Origin: Medicago truncatula
Lineage: Eukaryota > Streptophyta > Magnoliopsida > Fabales > Fabaceae
DNA: 64,000 bases
Assembly: GCF_003473485.1 (NCBI RefSeq)
Contig: NC_053046.1
Span: 10,116,001-10,180,000 of the forward strand
Reading direction: 5' to 3'
Below the pieces are notes generated by a model that ran no database searches, was not told the DNA's origin, and saw only the letters and a list, made by a program, of their open reading frames with translations. The translations under genes and the position numbers were made by a program. Shown here in pieces: positions 3,733 through 46,425 of this stretch. How positions within the stretch are numbered: the stretch's first letter is position 1; the number at the start of each line of letters is the position of its first letter.

Positions 3733-4288
3733 AATTGGTCCATTAATTTGTTTTTTTGGTAACAAAATGACCATTGTTTTCATCTAACTTTGTTAAAAAA
3801 ACGCTTACATGAATCATTTAACATTGAGGTGAAAGATCCAAAAAACATTTATGACACTAGACATGATCGGTTACATACATTTTTTTTACAAATAAAAATT
3901 TCATCAACAACATTATAAATCAAGTAATCGATTGAATATGTTTTGAATAAAGACCGAAAAATACAACTATGAACCTTAATTTTGAGAGCGATGAATTTGG
4001 ACCTACCAACCTAGCAATAATTGTCCACATAGACCTTACTTGATGCATATATTTTATGTCTTAAAGGACTAACTGATATAAAAGACCAACTTCTAACTAA
4101 AAGGACAAATTCGATACAAACGTTAAACTTAAAGATCCCATGATATAATTTTTTTCTGTAGTAATAAATAATAGATATATCCCTAAAAAAATTAGATAAA
4201 AATAATCAAAATAATAGATATATTATTCACCTTTTTTTTAATTTTAAATATTGACATTTTACAAATTTAAATTAGAAAAGTTGATGTT
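3270..4288. other. Intergenic, low-complexity
   Basis: AT-rich with a T-run of about 35 bases at 3690-3724. No gene or RNA signature was recognised. Confidence 0.5.
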
Positions 4289-4440
4289 ATATGTCCCCGT
4301 AAACATAATTCAATTAGTAGAGACAATTCATTGTAATATACAGAGATCAGAGTTCAAACTCAAATTTCAACTACTTGAAATTTTTTTGAATGTTTATTAC
4401 GTTCAAATAAATCAGCCAACCATTTACCATCCACAAGGGT
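4289..4440 (+). mobile_element. Degenerate tRNA-derived SINE
   Basis: The order TCCCCGTAAACATAATTCAA (decayed box A), 'gagacaa', then AGAGTTCAAACTC (decayed box B) matches the better-kept SINE at 10897-11034. The tail has decayed. Confidence 0.45.
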
Positions 4441-5194
4441 AAGATTTTACTCTATAAGACATGATACATGGGATGGTTGTGACTTGTGAGAAAAAAATTG
4501 AGTACTTAATGAACTTTAAAGGTATGAAATAAGTATCTCATACATTTGCGGGTCCCACACATCTATAATACTAAAAAACAAAATTAAATGATATAGAGTT
4601 ATTGATAAATGACCGATGAATCCTATTTTAAAAAATTATGTGATGTGTTAGGATGAAGAGATTAAGGGTTTATTAAATACTATTATTAAAATTTTATAAA
4701 TGAGTGATGTGTAAATGTGACTTTCAAGTATTAAAAAAAGAATTTCTATGTTGGAGTTGCTCTTACTACAGCATGATGACCCGAAACGTGTCACAATGTT
4801 AAAGTCCATTGTTACCCTTGAAGCATAGTTACGTGGCACCTCCACAAACTTAATTAAAGCACTTTACCAAACCCAAAAATGGAAGAAAGAAAAAAAAACA
4901 CTTTCAAGTTTCAAGTAAACCTTTGGTTTTCCAAGTGAAACAATGGCAGCTGCATGAATCTTTTTGTTATGTTTATGAAGAAGGAAACCGAGCCAGTTAG
5001 TTAACTTTGGGAAAGGGCAAAGGGAATGGACCATAGAACACAAACAACAAGAACCTTCCATGTCCTCTTTGGGCAAGGTAAACATTTTCATTCCCTTTCC
5101 AAAAATCTCTCATTTTTATGGTGCGATTTGTAGTAAAAATGTGCAATGTTAGTACTTCTATGTGATTTTTACGGGCTGTGTCACAAAAAACATG

Positions 5195-5204
5195 AAAAAA
5201 AAAA
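5195..5204 (-). terminator. Pol III T-run terminator of U3 copy 1
   Basis: Ten A on the plus strand, so ten T on the coding strand, 8 bp beyond the U3 3' end. This is the expected stop signal for plant U3, a Pol III transcript. Confidence 0.8.
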
Positions 5205-5212
5205 GTTGTTTT

Positions 5213-5428
5213 GAGTCTGTCAGACAACCGTGTGACCATCTCAGTCAGTTGAACTAGGCCGAGAACGATCATCTACAGCTGAAGATGATGCACACATCAT
5301 CCTGGCCGTTAATCACGCTCTGATCACACGGTCATGGTTCATCCACCAGACGTATGTTCCTGTCTCCTTAGAAATCAAGGACACAGTAGTACGATCCTAT
5401 AGAACAGATCCTGTTCAAGTAAGGTCGT
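5213..5428 (-). ncRNA. U3: U3 snoRNA, copy 1 (intact)
   Basis: Read on the minus strand, the 216-nt RNA starts ACGACCUUACUUGAACAGGA, the plant U3 5' end. It carries box B (GAGCGUGA), box C (GAUGAUCGUUCU) and, next to the 3' end, box D (GUCUGA). U3 base-pairs with the pre-rRNA external spacer and 18S region and guides the early cleavages of the small-subunit processome in the nucleolus. All boxes are intact here. A USE and TATA lie upstream at Pol III spacing and a T-run follows. This is the best candidate for the working copy. The exact ends are inferred from family knowledge and may be off by a few bases. Confidence 0.96.
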
Positions 5429-5451
5429 GCTTGATTGTGCTCAGTTTCAGG

Positions 5452-5494
5452 TATATAAACAGTTGAGTTTTTCTGTTATTAAGCGATGTGGGAC
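5452..5494 (-). promoter_or_regulatory. U3 copy 1 promoter (USE + TATA, Pol III spacing)
   Basis: On the minus strand GTCCCACATCG (5484-5494) is a perfect plant snRNA upstream sequence element. TTTATATA (5452-5459) is the TATA box, about 24 nt before the start. The gap between them is 24 bp, the spacing that in plants specifies RNA polymerase III. Confidence 0.93.
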
Positions 5495-5689
5495 TAACTT
5501 CGTTGTTTTTGTTGTAACTCTCGCTTTGGGTTTTAGATATAAAATGCTTTTAAGTTTTGCAATCTTTCAAGATTCTGTAGCAAAACAAAAGCAGCTTTGG
5601 TGGGGCTACCGTTTCAAGAATCTGGGGCCCATTTTCATGAATGGTAAGATTTTACAGCTGAAATTTTAAATGTGTTTGCATTGTGCTTT

Positions 5690-6430
5690 TATATTTAGTG
5701 GTTGTTAGCAGCAGATAATACTTTAGTGTGTGTTTGAATCAACGATGAATTAGGCAAAATCACGGCAAGCCATTGTGATCTTGGCAAAAGCTACACTTTG
5801 TAGCATAACAACATCACGGTGCCATCGTTATTTCGTCAAATTCACTGTATTCATGTTATTGTATGAAGGTTTTCATTAAAAGTTGCATGCTTTTTAAAGT
5901 ATTGCTTTTCCCCTTAGAATGAATTGTTCGCCTCGTTTTCAAATTCTATCAGTTGTCTCCTTCCACTTGAAACTGTTGCTTTTTATACTCTTAAGTGAAA
6001 ACTGATGATTGGATAAACTGTTTAAAATCTTGAGATGTTTGGCAGTGGCTCATTTTGTATACTCTATATGCTTAAGCATTCTGGCGGGGAGCTGTATATA
6101 TTTTTCTCTGAGAAAGTTAAATCGATCACCTTGTTCATCTTTCACTTTAAGTGGTAGTTAGCAGCAGCTAACACTTTAGTAAGATTTTATAGCTGAAATT
6201 TTAAGTGGTAGTTAGCAGCAGTTAACACTTTAGTGCATGTTTAAATTGACGATGAACTAGGCGAGTGAAATCACGGCGAGCCATTGTGATTTTGGCAAAA
6301 GCTACACTTCGTAGCATCAACAACATCACAGTTCCACCGTTATTTCGACAAATTCACCGTGATTTAAGTTATCGTATGAAGTTTTTCATTAAAAGTTACA
6401 TGCTTTTAAAAATATTATACTTATCGCCTT
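5690..6430. repeat. Imperfect tandem duplication between U3 and U5 of unit A
   Basis: The segment 5695-5900 (GTTAGCAGCAG..., CATTGTGATCTTGGCAAAAG, TTCATTAAAAGTT) is repeated at about 6205-6420 with scattered substitutions and small indels. No coding potential was recognised. It fills most of the U3-U5 gap, which has no other gene. Confidence 0.7.
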
Positions 6431-7000
6431 AGAATAAGTATTTTAAAGTGCAACATAAATAGTAAAAAGCATTCAGAGTTTCTACAATGACTTTGATAAG
6501 TAAAAAACAATTCGCTCTTGCAAGGAAGGCTTGGAGATGACTTTTAGAACTTCATTCCATGTGTCCATTCTCTTTTCCTAAAACAAAGGTTGGGTGTAAT
6601 GCCATAACAGATTTGATTGATGGTGTGAGGACTGAGGATTTGGCAACAAAATACAAATCTGTATTTATGAGTCATTTCAAAATATTTGCCAAGTGCAACA
6701 ATATGAATTATACAATGAATTGTACTATGTTCTTTAAAAAAAGTTAAACTGATCACCTTCTTGTGCAATGAAGAGTACTATCTCGTTTCATATTTCATTG
6801 GTATTTTTTAATGACGCCTAATAACTATTTATACTTTATAGTGCATGCATAACATGTTGACCAACGTCATTTGTAAACGAATGTTGCAGGTGACTGAGTT
6901 GTCAAGGGGAAAGATGAGTGAATAGGGGAAAGATGTGAGAACAGGTTCCTCATTCTCAAGGGGAGAAAGGAAGTAGTCTAGTTAATTGGTGTCGGATAAA

Positions 7001-7049
7001 CTCCCACATCGACCAATTCATAAACTAAACTATGCTGCTTACTTATAAA
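7001..7049 (+). promoter_or_regulatory. U5 copy 1 promoter (USE + TATA, Pol II spacing)
   Basis: CTCCCACATCG at 7001-7011 (consensus RTCCCACATCG, first base off) and TATAAA at 7044-7049 are separated by 32 bp. This wider gap is the plant Pol II snRNA promoter class. Confidence 0.9.
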
Positions 7050-7077
7050 ACGAAAAGACCTCAGCTTGTTAAAATTT

Positions 7078-7201
7078 ACGGAGCTGTGTGATGATCACAT
7101 AGCGAACTATTCTTTCGCCTTTTACTAAAGAATACCGTGTGAGCGTCACAATTAGCGGCATACACTAGTTTTTGGAAGAGTCCTCTTCATTGAGGGCTCT
7201 G
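7078..7201 (+). ncRNA. U5: U5 spliceosomal snRNA, copy 1
   Basis: Stem I closes as AUUCUUU / AAAGAAU around the invariant U5 loop CGCCUUUUACU, which holds the exon ends in the spliceosome. Further down are the Sm site AGUUUUUGGA and a 3' hairpin (AGAGUCCUC paired with GAGGGCUCU). The start is set about 29 nt after the TATA box at an A shared by all three copies. The RNA is about 124 nt. It differs from copy 3 at four positions, none in the loop or Sm site. The 3' end is approximate. Confidence 0.95.
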
Positions 7202-7215
7202 CAAATTTAGTTCAA
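7202..7215 (+). terminator. 3' box of U5 copy 1
   Basis: CAAATTTAGTTCAA matches the plant snRNA 3'-end formation signal CA(N)3-10AGTNNAA directly after the terminal hairpin, as expected for a Pol II snRNA gene. Confidence 0.88.
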
Positions 7216-7876
7216 TATTTTTGTATTCTTTTATTTTTATGTGGTTGCTATGTTATTGGTATGCCTACTTTAATGGAACAACTTGTATAAATTCGTTGTT
7301 GGTAATACTTCCCTAATTTGTTTCTAGAGGAGTGACTCTCGACAAAACAGCAGCATAGAGTAGCATTTATTTTTAATCATCATCCCCTCAAACGGACACT
7401 CCTATTCGTTGCCAATAGGGGCGGGAATAGGTAAGAGTAAGACCATCCGCCAGGGGTCTACGGCCTAGGCTACATCAGACCTTTGACCAAGTTTTTTCTT
7501 AAATAGATAAGCCTAAGATTCTATTAGAAGTTTATTTAATTAAAAAGGCCAAACTAAAGGTCATACAAAAAAAAAAAAAGAAGTTTTTAGGCCTACTAGG
7601 ACAACATATTTAAGTAAATATAAATAATATTTTTTATTTTTCTTATTATTATTATTATAACGAATTCTGTACTTCGGATTAAATTATAATTTTATTAAAT
7701 AATTTAAGTGTATAGAGTAGCCAAATAAGAGAAAGATCATAGTGCCTACTTTGTCTGATTTAACTGTTTTGAGAAGAAAGCTACTCGTAGTTGCCAGATG
7801 TTTAATTTTCTGGTATAGTTTGTAGACACATTTTGACTGTTGTTAGGGTGAATAACCTTCTTACTTTACCATCAAA

Positions 7877-8360
7877 TTATATTTTCAAAAGATGAAGCCG
7901 AAATGCTAAAAGTGGTGTCATATTGGATGAATGAACTGATTTGTCAAATGATGCTCCGGATTCTCTAGTATCCGATACAATAATCTTTGCCATGAGGCCC
8001 TTAAGTATGTTGATGAGGGAGTGAATATCCGATGAGTGCCCTTGTACAATAATCTTTGGCATACTTGTTCGTTCATCAACTACAAGTTGTGATGGAAGAA
8101 GACCTTCAATTGAGATATGAATATCCGATGAGGACACTAATTGCCAGCAACTGTCCACATGAGATAGTTGAAGTCAGGAGCTGCACAGTAGTTGGAGTTC
8201 AAAGGCATCGATATGAGTAGCGTGTACAACACGAATGAGGGTTTGGTTAATGTGCCAGATTCCTACGAAGAGGTTTTTATAGACAAATCTGTCGCTCGAG
8301 TGAAAAAACCAATTGATGAAGTTCTTCAACCGTGTACAGCAACACTTGGTTGATAATGAG
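7877..8360. other. Coding-like scrap of unknown origin
   Basis: On the minus strand an open frame at 7877-8158 contains a repeated SSDIH motif. On the plus strand an ATG at 8213 opens about 47 codons with balanced composition (MSSVYNTNEGLVNVPDSYEE...). The family was not recognised. It may be gene debris or chance. Confidence 0.2.
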
Positions 8361-8990
8361 GATGTACAGATTTCGTAGGATGATACAGAGATTCCATCTG
8401 TTAGTTTCTTTGATAAAACTTAGTTGCCGCCAAAGATAAAAGCGTATTTACTGTTCCCTAGTGAGAATTGGTTTGCTTTATATTCTTTGTTTGTTTCATT
8501 TCATGTTTATGCTAATGTATTAGTCTTGAGATGATTGCATAATTTCATAGACCATTGTTGACTTGATTTATAGATGAATGGATGATAATAGTTTGTTATC
8601 GAAGAGTTACTAATGTTCTAATATAGTAGTTTCTGCAATACCATGTTACTCTTAGCACTAGTCATTTGGCATGCTGTCAAAATTTGTGGCTTCTAGCTTG
8701 GTATTTTATCCCTGTAACTTTTCTGTTGTCATTTTAGAAGTGAGAAAGTAAGAGTGGGATTTTCTTATCTGTGGGTTGAAAATCATAATCAAATCACGAA
8801 GCAGATGTGATTTTACACAAATGGGAAGAGATATTATAAGTAGCTCCTTTGATATTTTCTCCCCGGTATTTGGTGAATTGATGCTTGAATAGGTTTTAAA
8901 TTCTATTTGTTCTCTCCTTCCTCCTAAGTGGAATCTACATTATCATTCCCTTCTCAAATCATATTTGTTTTTTATGGTGCGTTTTGTTGT

Positions 8991-8999
8991 AAAAAAAAA
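8991..8999 (-). terminator. Pol III T-run of U3 copy 2
   Basis: Nine A on plus (T9 on the coding strand), 15 bp past the U3 3' end. Confidence 0.65.
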
Positions 9000-9014
9000 G
9001 TACAATGTCGTTTT

Positions 9015-9230
9015 CAGTCTGAAAGACAACCGTGTGACCATCTCAGTCAGTTGAACTAAGCCAAGAACGATCATCTACAGCTGAAGATGATGCACACATC
9101 ATCCAGGCCGTTAATCACGCTCTGATCACACGGTCATGGTTCATCCACCAGACGTATGCTCCTGTCTTCTTAGAAATCAAGGACACAGTAGTATAATCCT
9201 ATAGAACAGATCCTGTTCAAGTAAGGTCGT
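9015..9230 (-). ncRNA. U3: U3 snoRNA, copy 2 (box D altered, probably failing)
   Basis: Same length (216 nt) and same 5' end as copy 1, with about ten substitutions. Box B and box C are kept. Box D reads GUCUUU in place of GUCUGA, and GGAUCGUAC in the 5' domain reads GGAUUAUAC. Box D is needed to bind the C/D core proteins and stabilise U3, so this copy is likely a drifting or dead gene even though its promoter is intact. Sequence changes are seen directly; loss of function is inferred. Confidence 0.9.
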
Positions 9231-9253
9231 GCTAGAATGTGCTTAGTTTCAGG

Positions 9254-9296
9254 TATATAAACAATTGAGTTTTTCTGTTATTAAGCGATGTGGGAC
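9254..9296 (-). promoter_or_regulatory. U3 copy 2 promoter (USE + TATA)
   Basis: GTCCCACATCG on minus (9286-9296) and TTTATATA (9254-9261) keep the 24-bp Pol III gap found at copy 1. Confidence 0.9.
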
Positions 9297-10084
9297 TAAG
9301 TTTGTGGTTTTCGTTGTAACTCGTTTTTTGGGATTTATTATATATAAATGCCTTCGAAATTCTGTAACCAGACAAACACAGCTCTGGTGGTGCTACTGTT
9401 TCAAGTAGCTGGGGCCCATTTAAATATTGCAAATTGTTGTTTTGTTGAACATGTATGCTTATGTACATCTTAAAATTTTGTGAATCAGGTTCGCCAAATG
9501 CCTGTTATTTCTCTGCTTATGGATGAGTGTACAGAAATAATTCTTACATATGTTTAGACTAATATAATATTTTTGAGAAGAGATGAGGTTGAATATCCCG
9601 CAAGTGCAAAGCAATTTCATCTTTGTCATTTTTAAATGAATGTTGCAGGTGACTGAGTTGTGTACAGGTGTCAGATCAGCTTATCTGGATCCTTCCTTCG
9701 TAATACCATCAACACAATCTTTGTCTGAAGGAGTAACCAGGAGTTTTGTAGTTATTAATATAGTAAGTATTTTATCATAGGGATCAAATTCTCCAACTCT
9801 TATCTCTCAATTTTTTTATCATCTGTGTTCCAACCACCAAGAAGAGAAAGAAGCCTCTGTATCTTAGTCTCTTTCTTTTGGAAGAAAAGCTTCAATGAAT
9901 GTTTAATGTTCTAGCTTTGAGATATTGAAGAAAACTATATGATTTAAAACATATGAAATTGAAGAGAAAAGATTAAACATTTCAAATAAATATGTGGATG
10001 AGTGAATAGGGGAAAGATGTGACAACAGGTTCTTCATTCTCAAGGGGAGAATGGAAGTAGTCAAGTTAATTAGTGTCTGACAAA

Positions 10085-10133
10085 GTCCCACATCGCCCAG
10101 TTCATAAACTAAACTATGCAGCTTTCATATAAA
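10085..10133 (+). promoter_or_regulatory. U5 copy 2 promoter (USE + TATA)
   Basis: GTCCCACATCG at 10085-10095 is a perfect USE. TATAAA at 10128-10133 follows after 32 bp (Pol II class). Confidence 0.93.
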
Positions 10134-10160
10134 ATGAAAGGATCTCTACTTTTTTTAAGC

Positions 10161-10284
10161 ACGGAGCCGTGTGATGATCACATAGCGAACTATTCTTTCG
10201 CCTTTTACTAAAGAATACCGTGTGAGCGTCATAATTAGCGGCATACGCTAGTTTTTGGAAGAGTCCTCTTTATTGAGGGCTCTG
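10161..10284 (+). ncRNA. U5: U5 spliceosomal snRNA, copy 2
   Basis: 124 nt with the invariant loop CGCCUUUUACU on an AUUCUUU/AAAGAAU stem, Sm site AGUUUUUGGA and intact 3' hairpin. It differs from copy 3 at two positions only (a C-to-U in GCGUCAU and one base of the terminal loop). It looks functional. Confidence 0.96.
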
Positions 10285-10298
10285 CAAATTTAGTTCAA
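10285..10298 (+). terminator. 3' box of U5 copy 2
   Basis: CAAATTTAGTTCAA, same as copy 1, matches CA(N)3-10AGTNNAA. Confidence 0.88.
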
Positions 10299-10489
10299 TT
10301 TTTTTGTATTCTTTTTTTAATGTAGTTGCTATGTAATATGGTATGCTATTTGTTTAAGGTAGTTATTTAAAAACTTGTAAAATTCATTGTTGGTAATACT
10401 TTCCCTAATTTGTTTCTAGAAGAGTGACTCTTGACAAAACAGCATAGAGTAGCATTTAAATTTTAATCATCATCCCCTCAAAGTGAAAT

Positions 10490-10562
10490 AGGGGCGGCCT
10501 GCCCCGGGTGGGTATAGGTAAGAGACCATCCGATAGGGGTCTGCCCCGGGTGGGTATAGGTA
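10490..10562 (+). repeat. Short GC-rich direct repeat
   Basis: CTGCCCCGGGTGGGTATAGG occurs twice about 43 bp apart, in a strikingly GC-rich patch. A related sequence lies at 7420-7500. It is probably a transposon scrap. Confidence 0.6.
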
Positions 10563-10896
10563 AGTTGTTTAATTTAAAATGATGATATATCATATTTAAA
10601 TTGAAATTTTTAGGGAGTTTTTAGGTAATTCGATGAATATTGATAATTCTACATCATCATATCGTATGATACGTCATCAAACATATCACATCATTGTTTC
10701 TTAATCCAAAAATATGAGAAAGGATCAAAACTGAGGGATTTCAAAATGAGGGACCAATTTCATGAGTGAATGAAAATATGAAGAATAAAACTATAATTAA
10801 GCAAAAATGATTTATAGTATAAATTAAATAATTTCAAATGTTGATGATAAATCTGGTTCATACAATATTTAATTGTCAATAAGTAAAATGTATAAG

Positions 10897-11034
10897 TCCC
10901 CGCGAGCATAGCTCAGTTGGCAGGGACATCCATTATTATATGTAGGGGCCAAAGTTCGAACCCCGGACACCCCACTTATTCATCTTGAAAAAGGCAAATT
11001 CTAGCCATTAGGCTACTTGACCAAAAAAAAAAAA
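10897..11034 (+). mobile_element. tRNA-derived SINE, well kept
   Basis: Box A-like TAGCTCAGTTGG at 10909-10920, box B-like AGTTCGAACCCC near 10952, a conserved tail (ATTCTAGCCATTAGGCTACT) and an A-run at 11022-11034. The body is not a foldable tRNA, so this is a SINE and not a tRNA gene. Confidence 0.85.
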
Positions 11035-11829
11035 TTAAAGTGAAAAAGATAAGAACTGTTATCGTAGCAATCTCCTAATTTTTTAGGATATACCTATAAT
11101 ATCTACTTTTAATTTTTTAATTAACGATTGATATTGGTCATAATATTTTTTGGGAAACGTTAACTAATACTCTTAGTGCATTGTTTAAGTATTTAAAAAT
11201 GGTATTTTTTACATAGAAAAATGTGTAGTTATGACTTTTACATATCTTTGGCTTGTATTTTCAAGATAAAATTTCTTTTAATAGCTTCCTTAAACAATTC
11301 TCTCATGACACTCATTAGCAAAACCCCATCTTTTTATTCTTTTAGTTGGAAATATGACATTTACAAATCTAAGTAAAGTGGATGTCCATGTGAGAAGTCG
11401 ACTCACTCACTAGTGCTTTTTGTTCAAGTAAATCAGCCATTTACTGCAACATGGTGATGACCCAAAACGTGTCACAAACTTAATTAAAGCACTTTACCAA
11501 ATCCAAAAATGGAAGGGAAAAAGAAAAACAAAATCACTTTCAAGAAAACATATGGGTTTCCCTGTGAAACAATGGCAGGTCCATGAGTCTCTTTGTTATC
11601 CAGTTAGTGTTATCTTTGGGAAAGGGAATGGACCATAGAACACAAGCAACACAAACCTCCAATGTCCACTTTGTGAACCTAGGTTAACATTATCATTCTC
11701 TTTTCCAAAAATCATATTTATTTTTATGGTGTGTTTTATTGTAACAAAAGAAGTGCAATGTAGTACTTGTACATGATTATACGGGATGAGTCTCAAAAAT
11801 CATGATAAAAAAAGGAAAAAGGGGGTTTT

Positions 11830-11920
11830 GAGTCTGTCAGACAACCATGTGACCATCCCGGCCAGTTGAACAAGGACGGGAACGATCACCTACAGCTGAA
11901 GATGATGCACACATCATCCT
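11830..11920 (-). pseudogene. U3: U3 snoRNA, copy 3, truncated
   Basis: Only the 3' 91 nt remain, from box D (GTCTGA, intact) through box C, with extra substitutions. The similarity stops abruptly at 11920 and is followed by a stretch that is repeated at 11994. The 5' half (boxes A and B), USE and TATA are absent, so no U3 can be made. Confidence 0.92.
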
Positions 11921-13480
11921 GAGATGTATTAGTCTTGAGATGATTGCACCTATATTCTTTGTTTGTTTCATTTCCGTATAATTTGTTTATGCTAATGTAT
12001 TAGTCTTGAGATGATTGCATAATTTCATAGACCATTGTTGACTTGATTTATAGATGAATGGATGATAATAATTTGTTATCGAAGAGTTACTAATGTTCTA
12101 ATATAGTAGTTTCTGCAATACCATGCTACTCTTAGCACTAGTCCTTTGGCATGCTGTCAAAATTGTGCCATCTAGCTTGGTATTTTATCCCTCTAACTTT
12201 TTCTGTTGTCATTTAGAAGTGAAAAAGTAAGAGTGGGATTTTTTTTATCTGTGGGTTGAATATCATAATCAAATCACCAAGCAGACGTGATTTTACACAA
12301 ATGGGAAGGGATAATATAAGTGGCTCTTTTGGAAACCTTTGATATTTTCTCCCCGATAAGGTGAATTGATGATTGACTAGTTTTTAAATTCTATTAGTTG
12401 TCTCCTTCCTCCTAAAGCTGTTGCTTTTTATACCCTAAGTGAAATCTGATGATTGGATACAATGTTTGAAATCTTGAGATGTTTGGCAGTGGCTCAGTCT
12501 GTATACTTCGTATACTGTATGCTTAAGCATTCTGGTGCAGCATTGTATATATTTTTCTTTGAAAAGGTAGACTGGTCACCTTGTTGTGCAACGAAGATTA
12601 CTGTTTGTTTCATCTTTCATTCGAATTTGGTATTTTTGAATGAAGAATGTTATGCCTAACTGTTCATAGTGCATGCAGTGTTTCGTCTTTCATTGGTATT
12701 TGGTATTTTTTTGTTGTGTTTTGTTAAACATAAGTGCTTATACACATCTTAAACTTTTGTGAATCAGGTTCTCAGAATGCTTGTTATTTATCTGCTTTTC
12801 CTGAACCCATTCTTCACGATTCCACCATCGCCGACACCGTCTTTGTCTCCTAAAGATATTTCCAGTGAAAGGCTGCAGATGTTGAGTCAGAGAGATATTA
12901 AAAGGAATGGTGGCTAAGGGAATATGCATCACAAGGTTCTCTGTGGTGTATCCTCTTAGATGTAAGACAGATTAAATCTCTGCATTTTCTTAAGCAGGGG
13001 CATATTAAACATGAGAAAGGCATCAACACATGTTAATTTTCTTAAGCAAAAAAAGGTCAATGTTGTTAACCTTTTGAAACATAAAGGACCAACTTAAGGG
13101 GAAAAAAGACAGAGGATTAATCCGAAGTCTCTTACTGCAAACTGACAACTGTAGCTCCTTACTGTAAATTCATGCCTTGTTAATACTGTAAGTATTTTAT
13201 TAAGGATATATAGGGATAAAATTCTCCCACTCTTATCTCAACTTTTTTATCACCTGTGTTCCAACCACCAAAGGGAGAAAGAAGCCTCTGTATCTTAGTC
13301 TCTTTCTTTTAGAAGAAAAGTTTCAATGAATATTTAATGTTCTAGTTTTGAGATGTTGCAGAAAACTAAAATGATTTTAAACACATGAAATTGAAGAGAA
13401 AAGATTAAACATTTCAAATAAATGTGTGAAGGAGTGGATAGGGGAAACATGTGAGAACGGGTGGGTGACATGTGAGAACA
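11921..13480. other. Spacer between U3 remnant and U5 copy 3
   Basis: Duplicated non-coding sequence shared with units A (12425-12560 resembles 5970-6080) and B (11990-12420). No gene was recognised. Confidence 0.6.
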
Positions 13481-13497
13481 GGTGCGTGTCTGATAAA

Positions 13498-13546
13498 GTC
13501 CCACATCGCCCAATTCATAAACTAAACTATGCAGCTTGCATATAAA
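13498..13546 (+). promoter_or_regulatory. U5 copy 3 promoter (USE + TATA)
   Basis: GTCCCACATCG at 13498-13508 and TATAAA at 13541-13546, gap 32 bp (Pol II class). Confidence 0.93.
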
Positions 13547-13573
13547 AAGATAGAACCTCTCCTTGTAAAGATC

Positions 13574-13697
13574 ACGGAGCCGTGTGATGATCACATAGCG
13601 AACTATTCTTTCGCCTTTTACTAAAGAATACCGTGTGAGCGTCACAATTAGCGGCATACGCTAGTTTTTGGAAGAGTCCTCTTTATGGAGGGCTCTG
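13574..13697 (+). ncRNA. U5: U5 spliceosomal snRNA, copy 3
   Basis: 124 nt, ACGGAGCCGUG start, loop CGCCUUUUACU, Sm site AGUUUUUGGA, and a perfect 3' hairpin (AGAGUCCUC/GAGGGCUCU). It is the closest to a consensus of the three copies and looks functional. Confidence 0.96.
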
Positions 13698-13711
13698 CAA
13701 TTTTAGTTAAA
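13698..13711 (+). terminator. 3' box of U5 copy 3
   Basis: CAATTTTAGTTAAA fits CA(N)5AGTNNAA immediately after the hairpin. Confidence 0.85.
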
Positions 13712-14139
13712 TTTTTTAATGGCATTTGTTTGTATTTGAAAGAGTCATATCTAAGGAGTGGCTTTGCAATTTTAGTTCAGTATTGATGTCTTAGAATTCA
13801 TCGCTCGATTGTGTAGAAAAGTACGTAAGGCTGATTTCTTTAGTTATATTTTAGTTTAAAATATTTCTTATTAAAAGTGAAATTAGATATGAAGGAATTA
13901 ATTATTCAAGTGGATTCAATTGCACAACACAAATTTGCATGCTAATGTGTTTCTGGAGGAGTGTGACTCACGACAAAAACAACATACTACATTAAATTTT
14001 TAACATTTTTAAATGTATTTTTGTTAAAATAAAATAAAAAATATTAATAAGTATTCATTTATCATCATTATCTACAAACACTCAGATTTTTTTGAAACAA
14101 AATCTCTATTTTTACTGTCATCCCCAAAACCGTCCCTTT

Positions 14140-14280
14140 CTTTTTTTTTTTTTTTTTTTATTTTATAGATAGATGAAATGGCAAAGCCATTATAAACTCA
14201 CACAAGTGGAGGTACCGAGGTTCGAACCTCGGTCATGACATCCGGCCTAACAATATCGACATTTTTGCCTCAAACTTAGA
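14140..14280 (-). mobile_element. tRNA-derived SINE (minus strand)
   Basis: It starts with a T-run (poly-A on minus). GAGGTTCGAACCTC is box B, and the segment GGCAAAGCCATTATAAACTC is shared with the element at 58424-58552. Confidence 0.75.
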
Positions 14281-14876
14281 CTTAGTGTCCCATTACTCCG
14301 AGTTTGTTTGATTTCAATTTCGAAAACTTATAATGTGCCAACGAACTGAAATATATAACTTTTTACGTAAAGGGCAATCTCGTACTAGAGATTGGTTTTG
14401 CAACATGAATTCTAATCTGTCATCAGATATAGCAAAAGCCAACCATTATTTCAGGACATTCTTTTCAAATATTATCGGTAAGACCTATGTTGCCTTTGAA
14501 AAAATGTTGACAATAAATCCAACACGATGTGACTTCAATGAAAATCAGTCATGTGTACATAGTTGGTACACATGGCTGATTTTCATTGGCTTAAGGATTA
14601 ATTATCCATATTTTTTCAGAAGCAATCTAGAATTTTCCAATACAGGAGATGGTCTTGTAATAGTCTTGAAAAAACAGATAAACCTAACGAAAATAAGTCA
14701 ACGCCTTTTTCACATTATTATTTCTATTTAATGACCCTGCAGGAGATGGTCTTTTGTTACATGCAATACAATAAAATACATGGCCCCAATTACATTTACC
14801 AACCTCCATCCACAAAAGAAGATAACAGAAAATACATAAATAAACTGATGCTACATGGGATGATAATAAGGCCTTA

Positions 14877-17800
14877 TCAAACAATTTTTAACTCAAGCTT
14901 TGGATAGCCAGCCCGAGCTTTGTGCCGTTCGAAGAGATCTTGAAGTGCTTCCACAAACTGACTGTGTATCTTGGCAATCTAAAAGCAGGTTCAAATAAGC
15001 CAGTATTTTTTGTCAGCTGAACCATCAACATTTGCATATATATTCATGACACAGTATCAAGAATTTCCATCTAGAAACAGTTCCATGTTGGTTGAGAAAT
15101 GATATATTGACAACCTTTTGGTTGTCCAACATCGTATATCTATACCGTATAGATACTATGTCATTTTTTAATTAGTTGTTTCTCTCTCTTATAGTCACAT
15201 CAATAGTTATAATTGATGTATTTTTATACTAGTTGTTCAAAAGTTGTTGATTTTTAGATGTTCATATAACATTACTCTTTACATTTTTGTAATAGCTCTT
15301 GATTATGAAAGTATATTGCATGTTACTTATCGAAGCTGAGAATAAGACATGTAAGTTTCTTATAGAACTACTCCAAACTATAACTACCATCGTGAAAACT
15401 AGTTAACGAGAAATAAAATTGAGAATCCTTGTTTAAACATAAAAATGCTTTAAGAATGTGCATATACCTCCTCCGTGGTTGGTTCTGGATTTTTCTCGAG
15501 CACAATTGGCCTACCCACCACCACATGCATTGGATGTCTGAACGGTACCGGGGATCTGAAAAAGGAGATGAGATGATTTGTTTAACAAATATGAAATTAA
15601 AAGTTCTAAAGATGATCAAACTTTGATGCTAACTATTGTTTAGGCTCTGGTTGCACAATAATTGACTACTCTACTCAAATCAACTATTCTGAGCGAAATA
15701 AGTTTCTAAAAGTAAGAGCTTGCCAGTTACGATTAAAAGTGATAACTGAACGGAAAAGGCAGGCATCCTGAACAACATCAATTGAATCCAATTTCTCCAA
15801 TTACATGTTTTAGCAAATAGTTTAAGCTTATTTCCACCAAAAACTGACCTATTTTAACTATTGTTTCTAATTTCTATATTAGGTGTCGATCCTTTTTTGT
15901 GATAATGTGTGTGTAGGTAGCATTTTGAATGTGGAAGGCACGGTTCAAAAAGTTAAAGATCTTTTACTAAATTAATCCATCCTCTTCAATAAATTGACGC
16001 ATAAAAGAATCACGCACCCGAAGATACCCCAAAAACATATTGGGGTGAACTTAATCGCCCTAGAGAAGTTCAGAAACAACTTTCCATCTGGTTTCCACCA
16101 CTTATAGATATCTGACTGTATCAAAGTTACACCAAAAAGGATAGTTATCTTAAACTTATGAGAATACATCACAGTAAAACAAAAACAAATAAGCAAAGAA
16201 AATATAGTTAGCAGATCCAAAAGTGACATGCAAGTAGATTTCATAATAGTTTCACTTTTGTAAATCTGACATGTGAAGTCAAAATAAAGGTGCACCAGTG
16301 TAAGGCTTCCACATGAATGTAAGATTAAGAGATGAAATAAGTACCTGACCAAAGCAGAAAACAGGAACCAAGGGATGACCCTTCTCCAATGCTATGCGGA
16401 CAAAACCTCTTCTTGCCTTAAGGTAAGCTATCTATAAAGTAAAGTGTTCAAGTTATCCTGTTAACATCTATGAAACTGAATATATAATGACATAAGGAGG
16501 TCATTCTTACTAGATGCTAGAAATAGAATAAAATGGGCTGAATGGTTTCTGGTTATTGATCTTAAAACTCCAACTAAACAAAAGAACGGAATTCATTTTC
16601 CTCCATCTTAATTTAAAATAGATATGAAATATCATAGGAAAAAAATTAATGTAATTGAAATTCAAAACACGTGCAATTCACAAATGAGCTGAAGTGATTT
16701 AATAGCAAAACAAATTCCTGCACAGATGTACTATTGAAATTTGTATCAACAACAATCCTATATCTGGAGGAAATGAACACTTTAATTTATTATCATAAGA
16801 AAATAAGTATCATAAGGCAGGTCAAAGAAAGAGAAAAATCACATGAGCATTGAGTAAGATGAGGGCAAAAAGCAATGCACCTCGGAACCACGCTGCATGA
16901 GAAATGTCTCTTGAACTCCACCAGGTATTAAAATGCAACTATAACCAGCAGCTAACAGGGAGATAAAATTTTTCCTTGTTGCTGGTGTAAGACCCAACCA
17001 TGTCCATATGTGTCTTAAAAATGGTGTGTAGAACACCTATCATTGAAATGCAAAGAGAAAAACTTGTAAAGGAAATCTCAGTAATTATTAGTAATCATTA
17101 TTCATTAGTGCCTCAAGCAAAAGTTTTACCGCACTGCTAGCAAGAACTTTAACTTTTGGAATAGGCATGAAACCTGTGTTGTCAGCTAGTGCAATAACGC
17201 CAATTGGCAAAACTGAATGTGGTTCATAACCAAAAACTGCATATTTGTTCCACTGTTGTTACTATCAATGAGCAACTAACAAGAAGATACACCAAAAAAG
17301 TATAACCAATGATTTATTAATAATATAGGCCAAATTGCAAATATAATAAAATCGAGTTTGAAACCTATTTCCAACAGAAAAATACCACAATAACTAGGAC
17401 AACTAGAGAAACTGAAGTAAAAGTTACTTTGATTTGGTAAAAAAAAACAATTATAGAAAACTATGAATTTCATGCGGCTAAAATAATGGGGAAATATAAA
17501 GCTTATTGTAAATTGTACTAATTACATGTTACATATAAGGAAAACTCCAGCAACTAAGAAGGGCCGAACAACATGCACAGTTAAAGCTCGTAAATCTAGT
17601 TTCTGATTTGGACCAAGGTTAAGCAAGAATTAATTCAGCACGGCAGCTATCAGTCATATTTGGGGTTTTCACAAAAAGTAGTTATGCGGAAATGCCAATC
17701 CTAATAATTAAAATACAGAGTAAAAATTAACGGCCAACATTAAGTTGGTATACATCAACATAAAAGGAATCCAATTGAGCGACAAAAACAAATACCAGAG

Positions 17801-24446: not shown

Positions 24447-27934
<3,488 letters not shown>

Positions 27935-32269: not shown

Positions 32270-33788
32270 TTAGACCAAAGAACTGTTATCTGAGAATCCA
32301 ACATGCATAGAAGATTGTGAGTTACTAGTATTGATTGGTGTGTACTCACTAGTATTTGTTGTTGTAAAATCAGTACTTGCAAGACTAGCTAAATCCACAG
32401 CTGGCCACATAAAAGAAGGTTTAAAAGGTGGAACATGAGGCACATTAACAGACCCAGATAAAATCTGAACAATCATTTGCAAATTTGGTCTTTCACTAGC
32501 AATAGGATGAGAACAAGCCAATCCCAATTTCAATACCCTCTCTACCTCTTCAACATCATACTCATTCCCAACACTTTGATCAACTGCTTCTAAAATCCTT
32601 CCTTCACGATGTAAATACCAAACCCAATCAACCAAAAATTGGTACCCTTCAATTTTAGTCCAAGGTCTTTGACCACAAACTGTTTCAAGAAACACAGCAC
32701 CAAGTCCATATACATCTGATTCTCTTGAAGCTTTTCCTGTGTGGAAACATTCCGGTGCTATGTATCCCATTGTACCTTGTACTCCTTCTAATTCTGCATA
32801 CGATGTTTTTTCATTCTCTAGTGCACGTGCTAAGCCGAAATCACCTAAACGTGCATTGAAATCAACGTCTAGCATTATGTTGCTTGCTTTCAGGTCTCTG
32901 TGGACTACAGTTTGATCGTACTCGTTGTGTAGGTAATTCAATGCAGAAGCGACTCCTGAGAGGATTTTATACCTTAGATTCCAACTTAGTGGGGTTGTGC
33001 TTGTTCCTTCCTCGCAAAATATGTGGTTGTCTAAGCTTCCGTTAGGCATGTAGTCGTATACTAAGAGCAATACTCCATTTTTGTGGCACCATCCTGCATA
33101 TTATTTCCAAATTAGTTTCTGATAAAAACCAAGTGTACCATTTCAATCCTGAGAAAAAGTCATAATCAATCATGAGAATGATAAAATGAAGACATGTTAG
33201 TCCTTAATTTAATGCAATAGTTTTATCATTCAAAAGAGACTAATGTCATTCTTAAAGGACTAAAATGGCACATAGTTTTGTCAAATGACTAGTTTGAATT
33301 TTCACTCAGACCAACATATTTAAACCAACAATTTTTTGGTGTAAATTGGATTTCCTTCGCGTTCCTTGTTGAACTTAAATAGATGGCAAACTCTCTCTCA
33401 GTATTTAAACGAACATTTAATTCAATGACAATAATATTATCAATTATCGACTTATATTCAAACATTGAATTTAGGTACTGAGTCAATACGAGTAAGAACA
33501 TTGAATTTTTATACACCAAAGTACGAATTTGGATATATAGGACACATCCATCGTTATCTCTTTGATGACAACTCAAAGTTGACAACATGGTTAGTCTTTA
33601 CTTCACCATACCAAGCCAAAGTCATCGTATATATTATTTATGAACTCTTTTGTTAGACTAGTTGGCAATGCTTAAAAGTTACGAAAAGCTGAATTGGTAT
33701 GCATTATTATTGTTGTTGTTATTAATTAATATATTATTATGATTATTGATGATAATAACTCGTGCCTTTCATCTTATCTTACTATATA

Positions 33789-33819
<31 letters not shown>

Positions 33820-35845
33820 CTCGTGGAAACACTGGCCGGCTGATGGGGGGTTATGTTTACCACTAGGGCCTTAATTAACTACAAGATGATACTCAATTAA
33901 GTTTTTTCTACTCTAAAATCTATTAATTTTGTTTGGATGAATTTTTTATTTTGACTAATTAATAAGTTGACAATGTTACGTTGGAAATTTAGATTGAAAA
34001 GGATATTATGCTTGTAATTTCCATTTTCTTCATCCTTTTTTTTCCATAAATTTTCAGCGTTTGAGGATTGATTGATGAAGGAAGGTTCAATGAAATGAAG
34101 CTTAAGCTAAGCATTGACCATACGGACAAAAAGCAGAAAAAGCTCTCTATATTATTTATTGGGATAGCAATTAATATTGACCATATATATACGGTCATAA
34201 GAATCAAATGTCACTTTCAATCCAAAACTAAACCATAGGTCAAAACAAATGTACAGCTAATCAAGGTATAGTACTTAGCTAGATCACAACAATGCATGTT
34301 TTATTTTAGATTAAAAAAACATCACAGAAATGCCTTTTCTCTTTTAAAAGACCAGATACACCACCAACCTTCACCAATAATAGCTGGTCAAAAGTGTCAA
34401 TAATTCAATTATCAATCAACAATAACGGTAACACAGACAGAATGGCATTGGTATGAAACATTCCTAAACAATTATATGATCTGGACATATCTACTATTAG
34501 ATCTAATTAACTTCTAAGCTAACTTAGAGAATTTAATGAAAATTAATTAAGAAAAAGAAAAATGAAACTGACCTTGTAACTTAACAAGATGTTTATGACG
34601 AAGACGATTGATAATAGTAAGTTCAGCCAAGAAATCATCAGTACTTTTCATCTTATCTCTAGAAAACATCTTAACAGCAACTTCTAATTTCTCCTTAGGT
34701 AAAGTTCCTCTATAAACAACACCATATCCACCTTGTCCAAGTTTATGCTTTTCATCAAAATTATTTGTAGCTTTCTTCAATTCTTGAAAACTAAACTCTC
34801 TTGGTGTACCTGGTAAACTCTTCAATGTACCCATTATTTGAGAAGTTGAACCATGTTCATCACTCTTCTTCTTCTTACATAAATAATAATACCAAAATCC
34901 ACCACCAGCTAAAATCAAAACCAATACTGGAATCCCAACACCTAAACCAATACTCAAATTTTTTTCATTTTTATTATTATCAAACACTTCCATTGAAATA
35001 TTCCATCTAAGTACACAGTTTAACTCAACAGTGATACCCGTTGAAGCAGAAAATCCAAAATAAGAATTTTGACTCACCACTTGTCTTAGATCAAGAACAG
35101 AACTTATAATCGGTTTAGCCGGTTTTTTCACTATAGGTAAATCTTGTGAAGGTTGTTCCGCCATGTAGATACTAAGATTTTTCCGGTCACCGTCGTATTC
35201 AACCCATAAAACATGGAATCTAGTTCCGATCGGAGAGAGTTCCAAATCAAGAGGAACACTAACGTTGGAACGGACGCTATTTATGTCAAGTCCTATGTGG
35301 TTTTTGTCATCATCAAAGTCTTGTTTAACCGTGTCAAGTTCAACAGCGACAAAACGGTTGTTGACGTTTCCGTCTGTGGTGGCGTTTGTTAACCCTAGGT
35401 AACCACCGGAGCTGTTGAGAGGAATGGAGAGAGAAGGTGCGATGATGAAAGCGATACCTTCGCCAGGAGTACCGTTGTTGTAGCGATAGATGTTGATGAG
35501 AAATGAAGTATTGAAGGAGACAAGTTTTCCGGTGGAGGAAGAGCCATCCCAGAGTTTAAAGGGTTCTTTGTAAAAGACTCTGCCGGAGTTGTTGAAAAGG
35601 GGAACGATGTTTGAACTTCCAGCGCTGTCCGGGGTGACCTGAAGGGCGTTGAAATGGATGGTTGCGGTGGATAAAGTTTGAAAATAGTGTTCATTGGTGG
35701 CGTTGAAGAATCCAAAAGAGTGAGTTTCTTTTTTGAGGTTTTGAGCTTGGGAGGTTGCTGCCGGGAAGAGGAGAAGAATGCCGATGAGGGCGGTGAGGTA
35801 AGCCATGTCGGACTTGTGCCGGCGGCGACACTGAATGGAAAGCAT
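32270..35845 (-). CDS. L-type lectin-domain receptor kinase (S.5-like)
   Basis: Two exons, 34573-35845 and 32270-33093, joined at KLQG|WCHKNG by a 1,479-bp GT-AG intron (CAAG|GTCAG, TGCAG|G). Order: signal peptide, legume-lectin domain (SFGFFNATN...ELDTVKQDFDDDKNHIGLDI...YFGFSASTG), one transmembrane helix (IGLGVGIPVLVLILAGGGFW), then a kinase domain with GQGGYGVVYRG, VAVK, VVHRDLKASN, GDFGLAR and YIAPE all intact, and a Ser/Thr-rich tail. 698 codons from the first ATG; the ATG at 35806 (MAYLTALIGILLL) gives a cleaner signal peptide and 685 aa and is the likely true start. Known: plasma-membrane receptor kinases of defence and development. The C-terminal VPHVPPFKPSF block and the intron recall the Arabidopsis S.5 type; that subtype is from memory. 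Confidence 0.95.
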
Positions 35846-46255: not shown

Positions 46256-46425
46256 AGCAATGCTAGCAACACTCTCTCTAACACTCACTCTCTTATTGAT
46301 TTAAATAATTGTTGGTCTACACTTTGAAAATGGAACCAACACAAAGTGGTGGGACATACATTGATTTTATCCAATAAAAGAGTGAGTGCTATAGAGTGTT
46401 GAAAAATGAGTGTTGCTAGCATTCG
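46256..46425. mobile_element. MITE with AATGCTAGCAACACTC ends
   Basis: AATGCTAGCAACACTCTCTC at the left and, reverse-complemented, AATGCTAGCAACACTCATTT at the right; 170 bp and non-coding. It directly abuts the fold-back element that follows. Confidence 0.8.

Follow-up and report, generated by a model that had tools for sequence, protein, structure and literature searches.

Why should genes for two unlike small RNAs, a small nucleolar RNA (snoRNA) and a spliceosomal small nuclear RNA (snRNA), stand next to each other several times within a few kilobases of a plant chromosome? The question is raised by a 64-kb stretch of the Medicago truncatula genome (contig NC_053046.1, here C5, positions 10116001-10180000; hereafter, the window), in which minus-strand U3 snoRNA genes and plus-strand U5 snRNA genes face away from each other between window positions 5195 and 13711. 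We find that the DNA separating the two genes is decayed sequence of a gene for a Rab escort protein (REP), and judging from sequence, a U3-U5 unit is best understood as part of a REP pseudogene that was duplicated and that bears two RNA genes. U3 and U5 were probably multiplied jointly, as both are carried on duplicated pieces of this protein gene. The genome searched comprised 430 Mb in 42 contigs, and because the searches score only the best candidates, all small-RNA counts given here are lower bounds (at least 42 U5, 27 U3, 40 U1, 46 U2, 27 U4, and 45 U6 matches).

The initial annotation of this DNA had proposed three divergent U3/U5 units. Covariance models bear out two of them as full-length head-to-head pairs (units 1 and 2), while the third consists of a U5 gene with a U3 fragment. 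Two of the three claimed U3 copies passed the Rfam cut-off for plant U3 (Plant_U3, RF01847, 80 bits) over the full model. The first, U3-1 (5214-5428, minus strand, 194.4 bits), is the top-scoring of the 27 U3 matches listed for the genome; its boxes A, B/C, and C and a canonical box D, GUCUGA, are all present, and it looks intact, the only one of the three window copies that looks fully so. The second, U3-2 (9016-9230, minus strand, 169.7 bits), is full length and keeps its box C, but its box D is changed from GUCUGA to GUCUUU, its box A region is altered, and its 5′ stem is weakened, and it is probably damaged. The third, U3-3 (11831-11921, minus strand), scored 19.6 bits, below the cut-off: it is a pseudogene consisting of the 3′ 91 nucleotides (nt) of U3 (91.2% identity to nt 125-215), with box D retained and the 5′ half gone, and no minus-strand promoter element of the kind described below lies beside it. 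Three full units are thereby ruled out, since the third U3 is a promoterless fragment. All three U5 genes, which lie on the plus strand, exceeded the U5 cut-off (RF00020, 40 bits) and contain loop 1 (GCCUUUUACUAA) and an Sm site: U5-1 at 7082-7198 (91.1 bits), U5-2 at 10165-10281 (93.3 bits), and U5-3 at 13578-13694 (93.8 bits). Each is followed on the same strand by a 3′ box (7202-7215, 10285-10298, and 13698-13711), and by these features all three look intact. Just downstream of the last one, at 13721-13779 on the plus strand, the U5 3′ end and 3′ box region are repeated in part, at 76% identity.

Could the two genes of a pair be linked through one promoter? Each full gene was found to carry its own upstream sequence element (USE) and TATA box. 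The exact 11-base USE (GTCCCACATCG) occurs four times in the 64 kb, in every case at a promoter, namely those of U3-1, U3-2, U5-2, and U5-3. On the minus strand, the promoter of U3-1 spans 5450-5494 (USE 5484-5494, TATA 5450-5457) and that of U3-2 spans 9252-9296 (USE 9286-9296, TATA 9252-9259), with 26 bp between the exact USE and TATATA in both. On the plus strand, the promoters of U5-1 (7001-7051; a one-mismatch USE with the core TCCCACATC at 7002-7010, TATA 7044-7051), U5-2 (10085-10135; USE 10085-10095, TATA 10128-10135), and U5-3 (13498-13548; USE 13498-13508, TATA 13541-13548) all have a gap of 32 bp, i.e., 6 bp more than the window U3 genes as measured here. We fetched 20 of the 27 U3 and 29 of the 42 U5 matches with their promoters, including 9 of the 11 strong U3 matches (>100 bits) listed genome-wide. 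All nine had a USE of at least 10/11 matching bases at −65 or −66 (gap of 26 bp in 8/9), and 24 of the 29 fetched U5 loci combined a USE of at least 10/11 and a gap of 30 to 33 bp. The gaps of U3 and U5 fit the plant spacing rule as given in passages of PMC9845283, by which the USE of U3 and U6 promoters lies one helical turn nearer to the TATA box and RNA polymerase III (Pol III) is used. By this rule, U3 would be expected to be transcribed by Pol III, to stop at a T-run, and to serve in pre-ribosomal RNA processing, and U5 to be transcribed by RNA polymerase II (Pol II), to stop at the 3′ box, and to serve in splicing. A run of 10 T follows U3-1 (5195-5204, minus strand) and is likely a Pol III terminator, and a T-run also lies downstream of U3-2, at a greater distance, so that both genes have the closer USE and the T-run of a Pol III-type U3 gene, just as the three window U5 genes have the USE, TATA box, and downstream 3′ box of Pol II-type snRNA genes. 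The earlier statement that promoters, RNA bodies, and 3′ signals are complete is thus accurate for U3-1 and, apart from the single USE mismatch of U5-1, for the three U5 genes; it applies in part to U3-2, with its lost box D and more distant T-run, and fails for U3-3. A shared bidirectional promoter is ruled out, given the separate elements and the distances of 1653 bp (unit 1) and 934 bp (unit 2) within the two full-length pairs: What U3 and U5 have in common is the type of upstream element. Two other arrangements were rejected as well, a tRNA-driven U3 in the style of trypanosomatids, as ARAGORN sees no tRNA in the window, and an additional small RNA inside the spacer, as an Rfam scan of 4000-15000 at E ≤ 1 returned, apart from weak unrelated matches near 14.5 kb, only U3, U5, and the U3 fragment.

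We mapped the neighbors of small-RNA genes across the genome, using the 42 U5 and 27 U3 matches together with the stronger U1 (31 of 40), U2 (29 of 46), U4 (23 of 27), and U6 (21 of 45) matches. Among the listed matches, U3 and U5 lie within 25 kb of each other in three clusters only, all on C5 between 9.68 and 10.24 Mb: cluster A (9.680-9.699 Mb), cluster B, which is the window, and cluster C (10.230-10.236 Mb), where A and C are inverted relative to B. The four head-to-head pairs among these matches, one in A, two in B, and one in C, all fall inside the clusters, with spacers from 934 to ~3900 bp. Two tail-to-tail neighbor relations also occur, between window units 1 and 2 and beside a broken U5 (53.8 bits) in C. 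When 9 U3 and 31 U5 groups were placed at random, any pair within 5 kb arose in 0.7% of draws (p ~ 0.007). Six of the nine strong U3 groups have no U5 match within 25 kb. Conversely, the U5 matches at 13.77 and 12.16 Mb of C5 carry remains of the spacer and have no listed U3 match beside them. None of the 37 fetched loci outside C5 holds both U3 and U5, and the only part that they have in common with the clusters is the stretch upstream of U5, found in six U5 stretches of chromosomes 1 and 8. As a separate observation, the map contains five U1-U4 neighbor relations, on the same strand, at three places on C5 (9.23-9.39 and 12.60 Mb).

The spacers themselves, and not the RNA genes alone, are homologous across all three clusters. 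For units 2 and 3, spacer DNA free of RNA genes finds its matches on C5 alone, and the U3-side spacer of unit 1 includes a short stretch that is repeated on all eight chromosomes. The nature of this DNA became apparent from a minus-strand gene beside cluster A, in which a reading frame matches PDB 1ltx (Rab escort protein 1; 1.3e-12) and the Pfam domain GDI (2.7e-10). A genome-wide GDI search located this piece at C5:9705597-9706202 (minus strand), apart from two sets of GDI matches on C4 and C8 that look like genes, and the gene at 9.701-9.706 Mb is the apparent source of the REP pieces. Aligned to it, the window units 1 to 3 and clusters A and C all contain pieces of REP exons and introns, which lie in order and in the sense of U5. 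In the window, on the plus strand, these comprise 5941-5995, 5992-6132, and 6730-6861 in the spacer of unit 1; upstream of unit 2, a decayed exon with stops (8167-8501) and the intron next to it (8503-8925); intron and exon pieces at 9434-9682 and 9685-9726 in the spacer of unit 2; and four stretches within 11977-13019 in that of unit 3. Two of the window REP exon pieces carry stops, which rules out the spacer as a functional gene. U3 runs antisense to REP; it is flanked by REP pieces in A, C, and unit 2, and in unit 1 it lies to one side of them. The REP homology ends at one and the same base (A coordinate 9702970; window 13019) in four copies, i.e., unit 3, two copies in C, and one in A, where REP meets U5-side DNA; the match resumes at A coordinate 9704408 (within 3 bases) in unit 1, in C, and at two places in A, all of them U3-bearing. 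The spacers thus show the REP match, the collinearity, and the shared breakpoint of segmental duplicates derived from REP. This recognition of the U3-U5 spacer as decayed REP sequence is new here.

The same spacers bear on the age of the pair. Pieces of the different copies are merely ~65 to 92% identical, and for this reason we do not favor an assembly artefact. Such divergence also indicates that the pair is not very recent, as would be the case if U3 and U5 were already paired in the ancestor of legumes or earlier, stood next to REP by chance, and were amplified later. We regard this as improbable: The remaining strong U3 loci have no U5 match within 25 kb, the fact that copies share one REP/U5 junction points to a local origin, and the available passages on Arabidopsis, from a survey of splicing RNAs, name U1-U4 and U2-U5 clusters and do not treat U3.

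A different question is whether the two genes were kept together because they profit from each other. The proposal would be that adjacent USE-type promoters aid each other, through a SNAPc-like factor, open chromatin, or a nuclear body, with REP being irrelevant. The pair is found in all three clusters, and with box C (GUGAUUAAC) and box D (GUCUGA) as criteria, exactly three U3 genes genome-wide match both patterns, in cluster A, unit 1, and cluster C, all of them linked to U5. GUCUGA is absent from all five fetched strong U3 genes outside C5 (four full-length and one shorter), and the two strong unfetched U3 genes do not match the exact patterns of both boxes. Linkage of U3 and U5 is moreover known in the distant Euglena, mixed U1-U4 and U2-U5 clusters are described in passages on Arabidopsis, and U1-U4 neighbors occur in this genome too. 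Set against this are spacers of unequal length made of a decaying pseudogene, the majority of strong U3 groups that do without a nearby U5, and the loss of partners in either direction. In the window, one U3 is intact, one lacks box D, and one is truncated next to three intact-looking U5 genes, so that units 2 and 3 are the ones in which U3 fails. Clusters A and C have a canonical U3 along with U5 genes of which some are broken, the U5 partner in A being split by an insert of ~620 bp (C5:9694111-9694733) that includes a fragment of a Stress-antifung (DUF26) domain (Pfam, 4.1e-11). On balance, a selected linkage appears unlikely; a functional linkage of U3 and U5 is possible, and no special partnership of the two as a reason for their co-duplication can be demonstrated from these sequences. 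Going further, one might suppose that the U5-linked genes are the plant's main source of canonical U3 and that a Pol III/Pol II cluster, a counterpart to that of Euglena in opposite orientation and set on decayed REP, has been kept since the linkage aids expression; we hold this to be a long shot, if one with some chance. Cluster A shows a further peculiarity of its own, with the intact U3 being followed by two tandem U3 3′ fragments of 221-bp period (C5:9699017-9699327), whose breakpoint lies within one base of that of the window U3 fragment (by BLAST ends) and near a GATGATG...CATCATC hairpin.

The relationships among the RNA genes were examined in trees of the 9 U3 (>100 bits) among the 20 fetched and of 25 U5 (>65 bits) among the 29 fetched. 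The four full-length cluster U3 genes form one clade (99/99), and the six cluster U5 genes lie on one side of a branch with 85/85 support that is present in 84% of 200 bootstrap trees. A control grouping of the three window U5 genes with one from chromosome 1 was rejected at p = 4e-6; the grouping of the cluster U5 genes is already part of the best tree, and the clade test thus yields no value for it. U3 sequences are 91 to 97% identical in their bodies, 83 to 93% in promoters, and 59 to 79% far upstream, and mean U5 identity is 92.5% in body and 3′ box, 79% in the promoter, and 76% in the far upstream stretch, with 50% in the 3′ flank, where the far flanks are in part non-homologous. The greater likeness of bodies than of flanks indicates that the RNA bodies are constrained now or were so until recently. 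With homologous spacers in three clusters, a single U3 clade, and a moderately supported U5 grouping, the idea of the initial annotation that U3 and U5 were duplicated together is supported.

We consider it likely that U3 and U5 were amplified as passengers on duplications of a REP gene fragment. In the order of events that we infer, a portion of the REP gene would first have been duplicated and have become attached, at a single point, to a U5 gene carrying the region upstream of it, which would give the cluster U5 genes a single origin. A U3 gene with its flanks would then have arrived in antisense orientation beside or within the REP intron piece. Lastly, the composite would have been duplicated, inverted, and rearranged over ~0.56 Mb of C5, leaving the three clusters (9.68-9.70 Mb for A, 10.12 Mb for B, and 10.23 Mb for C) as well as U5-bearing remnants at 12.16 and 13.77 Mb. 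Our confidence in the passenger explanation is slightly lowered because decay hits both partners and because the U5 clade is moderately supported. Indeed, several observations weigh against it. Support for the cluster U5 clade lies below the starred level, with a rating of neither shown nor rejected, and the fetched set covers 29 of 42 U5 and 20 of 27 U3 matches, the C5 U5 matches at 3.48, 12.16, and 13.77 Mb being outside it. Two further frames of the gene beside cluster A gave no credible match (Pfam for both, PDB for one); by their place in the gene, we take them to be REP exons. Beyond the junction at 9702970, the four copies are of two kinds (B3 and C2 88% alike, Cdist and A′ 80% alike, 40 to 41% between kinds), which requires that an insertion or deletion took place later. 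The point of resumption at 9704408 is spanned by the unit 1 piece 5992-6132 and by a continuous match in unit 3, and the alignment of the REP gene to the clusters yielded no REP piece on the far side of U3-1. In unit 3, moreover, the REP intron piece has the U3 fragment on its upstream side, and the position of U3 relative to REP varies from unit to unit, which makes a single U3 insertion less certain than a single REP/U5 junction.

Elsewhere in the window, we observed a match to the MIR5269 microRNA precursor (46296-46374, plus strand, 69.3 bits; cut-off 60), subtilase pieces (25690-26262 and 27380-27934, plus strand), a piece of a legume-lectin receptor kinase (34547-35845, minus strand), and a further kinase piece (32270-33070, minus strand). 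A tRNA-like stretch with a tail at ~10902-10985, where ARAGORN calls no tRNA, looks, as judged by eye, like a tRNA-derived short interspersed nuclear element (SINE). Outside the window, a tandem array of at least nine U2 matches, full and weaker, occupies C2:9006561-9065474.

How do these clusters compare with known systems? Segmental duplication of a gene fragment that carries RNA genes as passengers is a known type of process, and the copies described here resemble segmental duplicates in general in that they reproduce parts of a source gene, REP, in collinear order and have a breakpoint in common; they differ from the general case in that the passengers are U3 and U5 with promoters of their own rather than RNAs processed from introns. 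A second point of comparison is Arabidopsis, where, according to passages of PMC545797, U1-U4 genes lie 180 to 300 nt apart, with five of seven such clusters on one chromosome, and U2-U5 genes lie less than 200 nt apart in tandem, all of these being splicing RNAs. The linkage of unlike small-RNA genes, mostly with USE/TATA promoters, and the multiplication of the U1-U4 clusters are alike in the two plants, whereas the Medicago pairs join a snoRNA to a snRNA, head-to-head and over 0.9 to 3.9 kb, and presumably combine Pol III with Pol II. The closest counterpart is found in Euglena gracilis, in which, by the passages available from PMC2784804, multi-copy U3 genes are linked to a downstream, convergent U5, have been multiplied by duplication, and have related spacers; this 2009 paper states there that linked U3-U5 genes were known in no other organism. 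Both Euglena genes are taken in these passages as Pol III-transcribed, whereas the U5 promoter here is of Pol II type and all four pairs that we count as units are head-to-head, none having the convergent Euglena arrangement; the spacer here is also a fragment of a protein gene, and the host is a plant. Among titles and abstract openings of the open-licence literature, we found no plant paper on U3-U5 linkage or on REP with snRNA genes. As far as we have seen, linked small-RNA genes are thus familiar, and it is the joint occurrence of divergent orientation, mixed polymerases, and a REP spacer that is new. If kept in relatives of Medicago, the pairs would offer natural Pol III/Pol II promoter couples with the same upstream element, of use in tests of polymerase choice and of cross-influence between promoters. 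They would likewise show a clear way in which unlike small-RNA genes can come to be neighbors, through hitch-hiking on duplications of protein-gene fragments rather than through shared function, and they would add to the U3-U5 linkage of Euglena a second one that is independent of it and has the opposite orientation.

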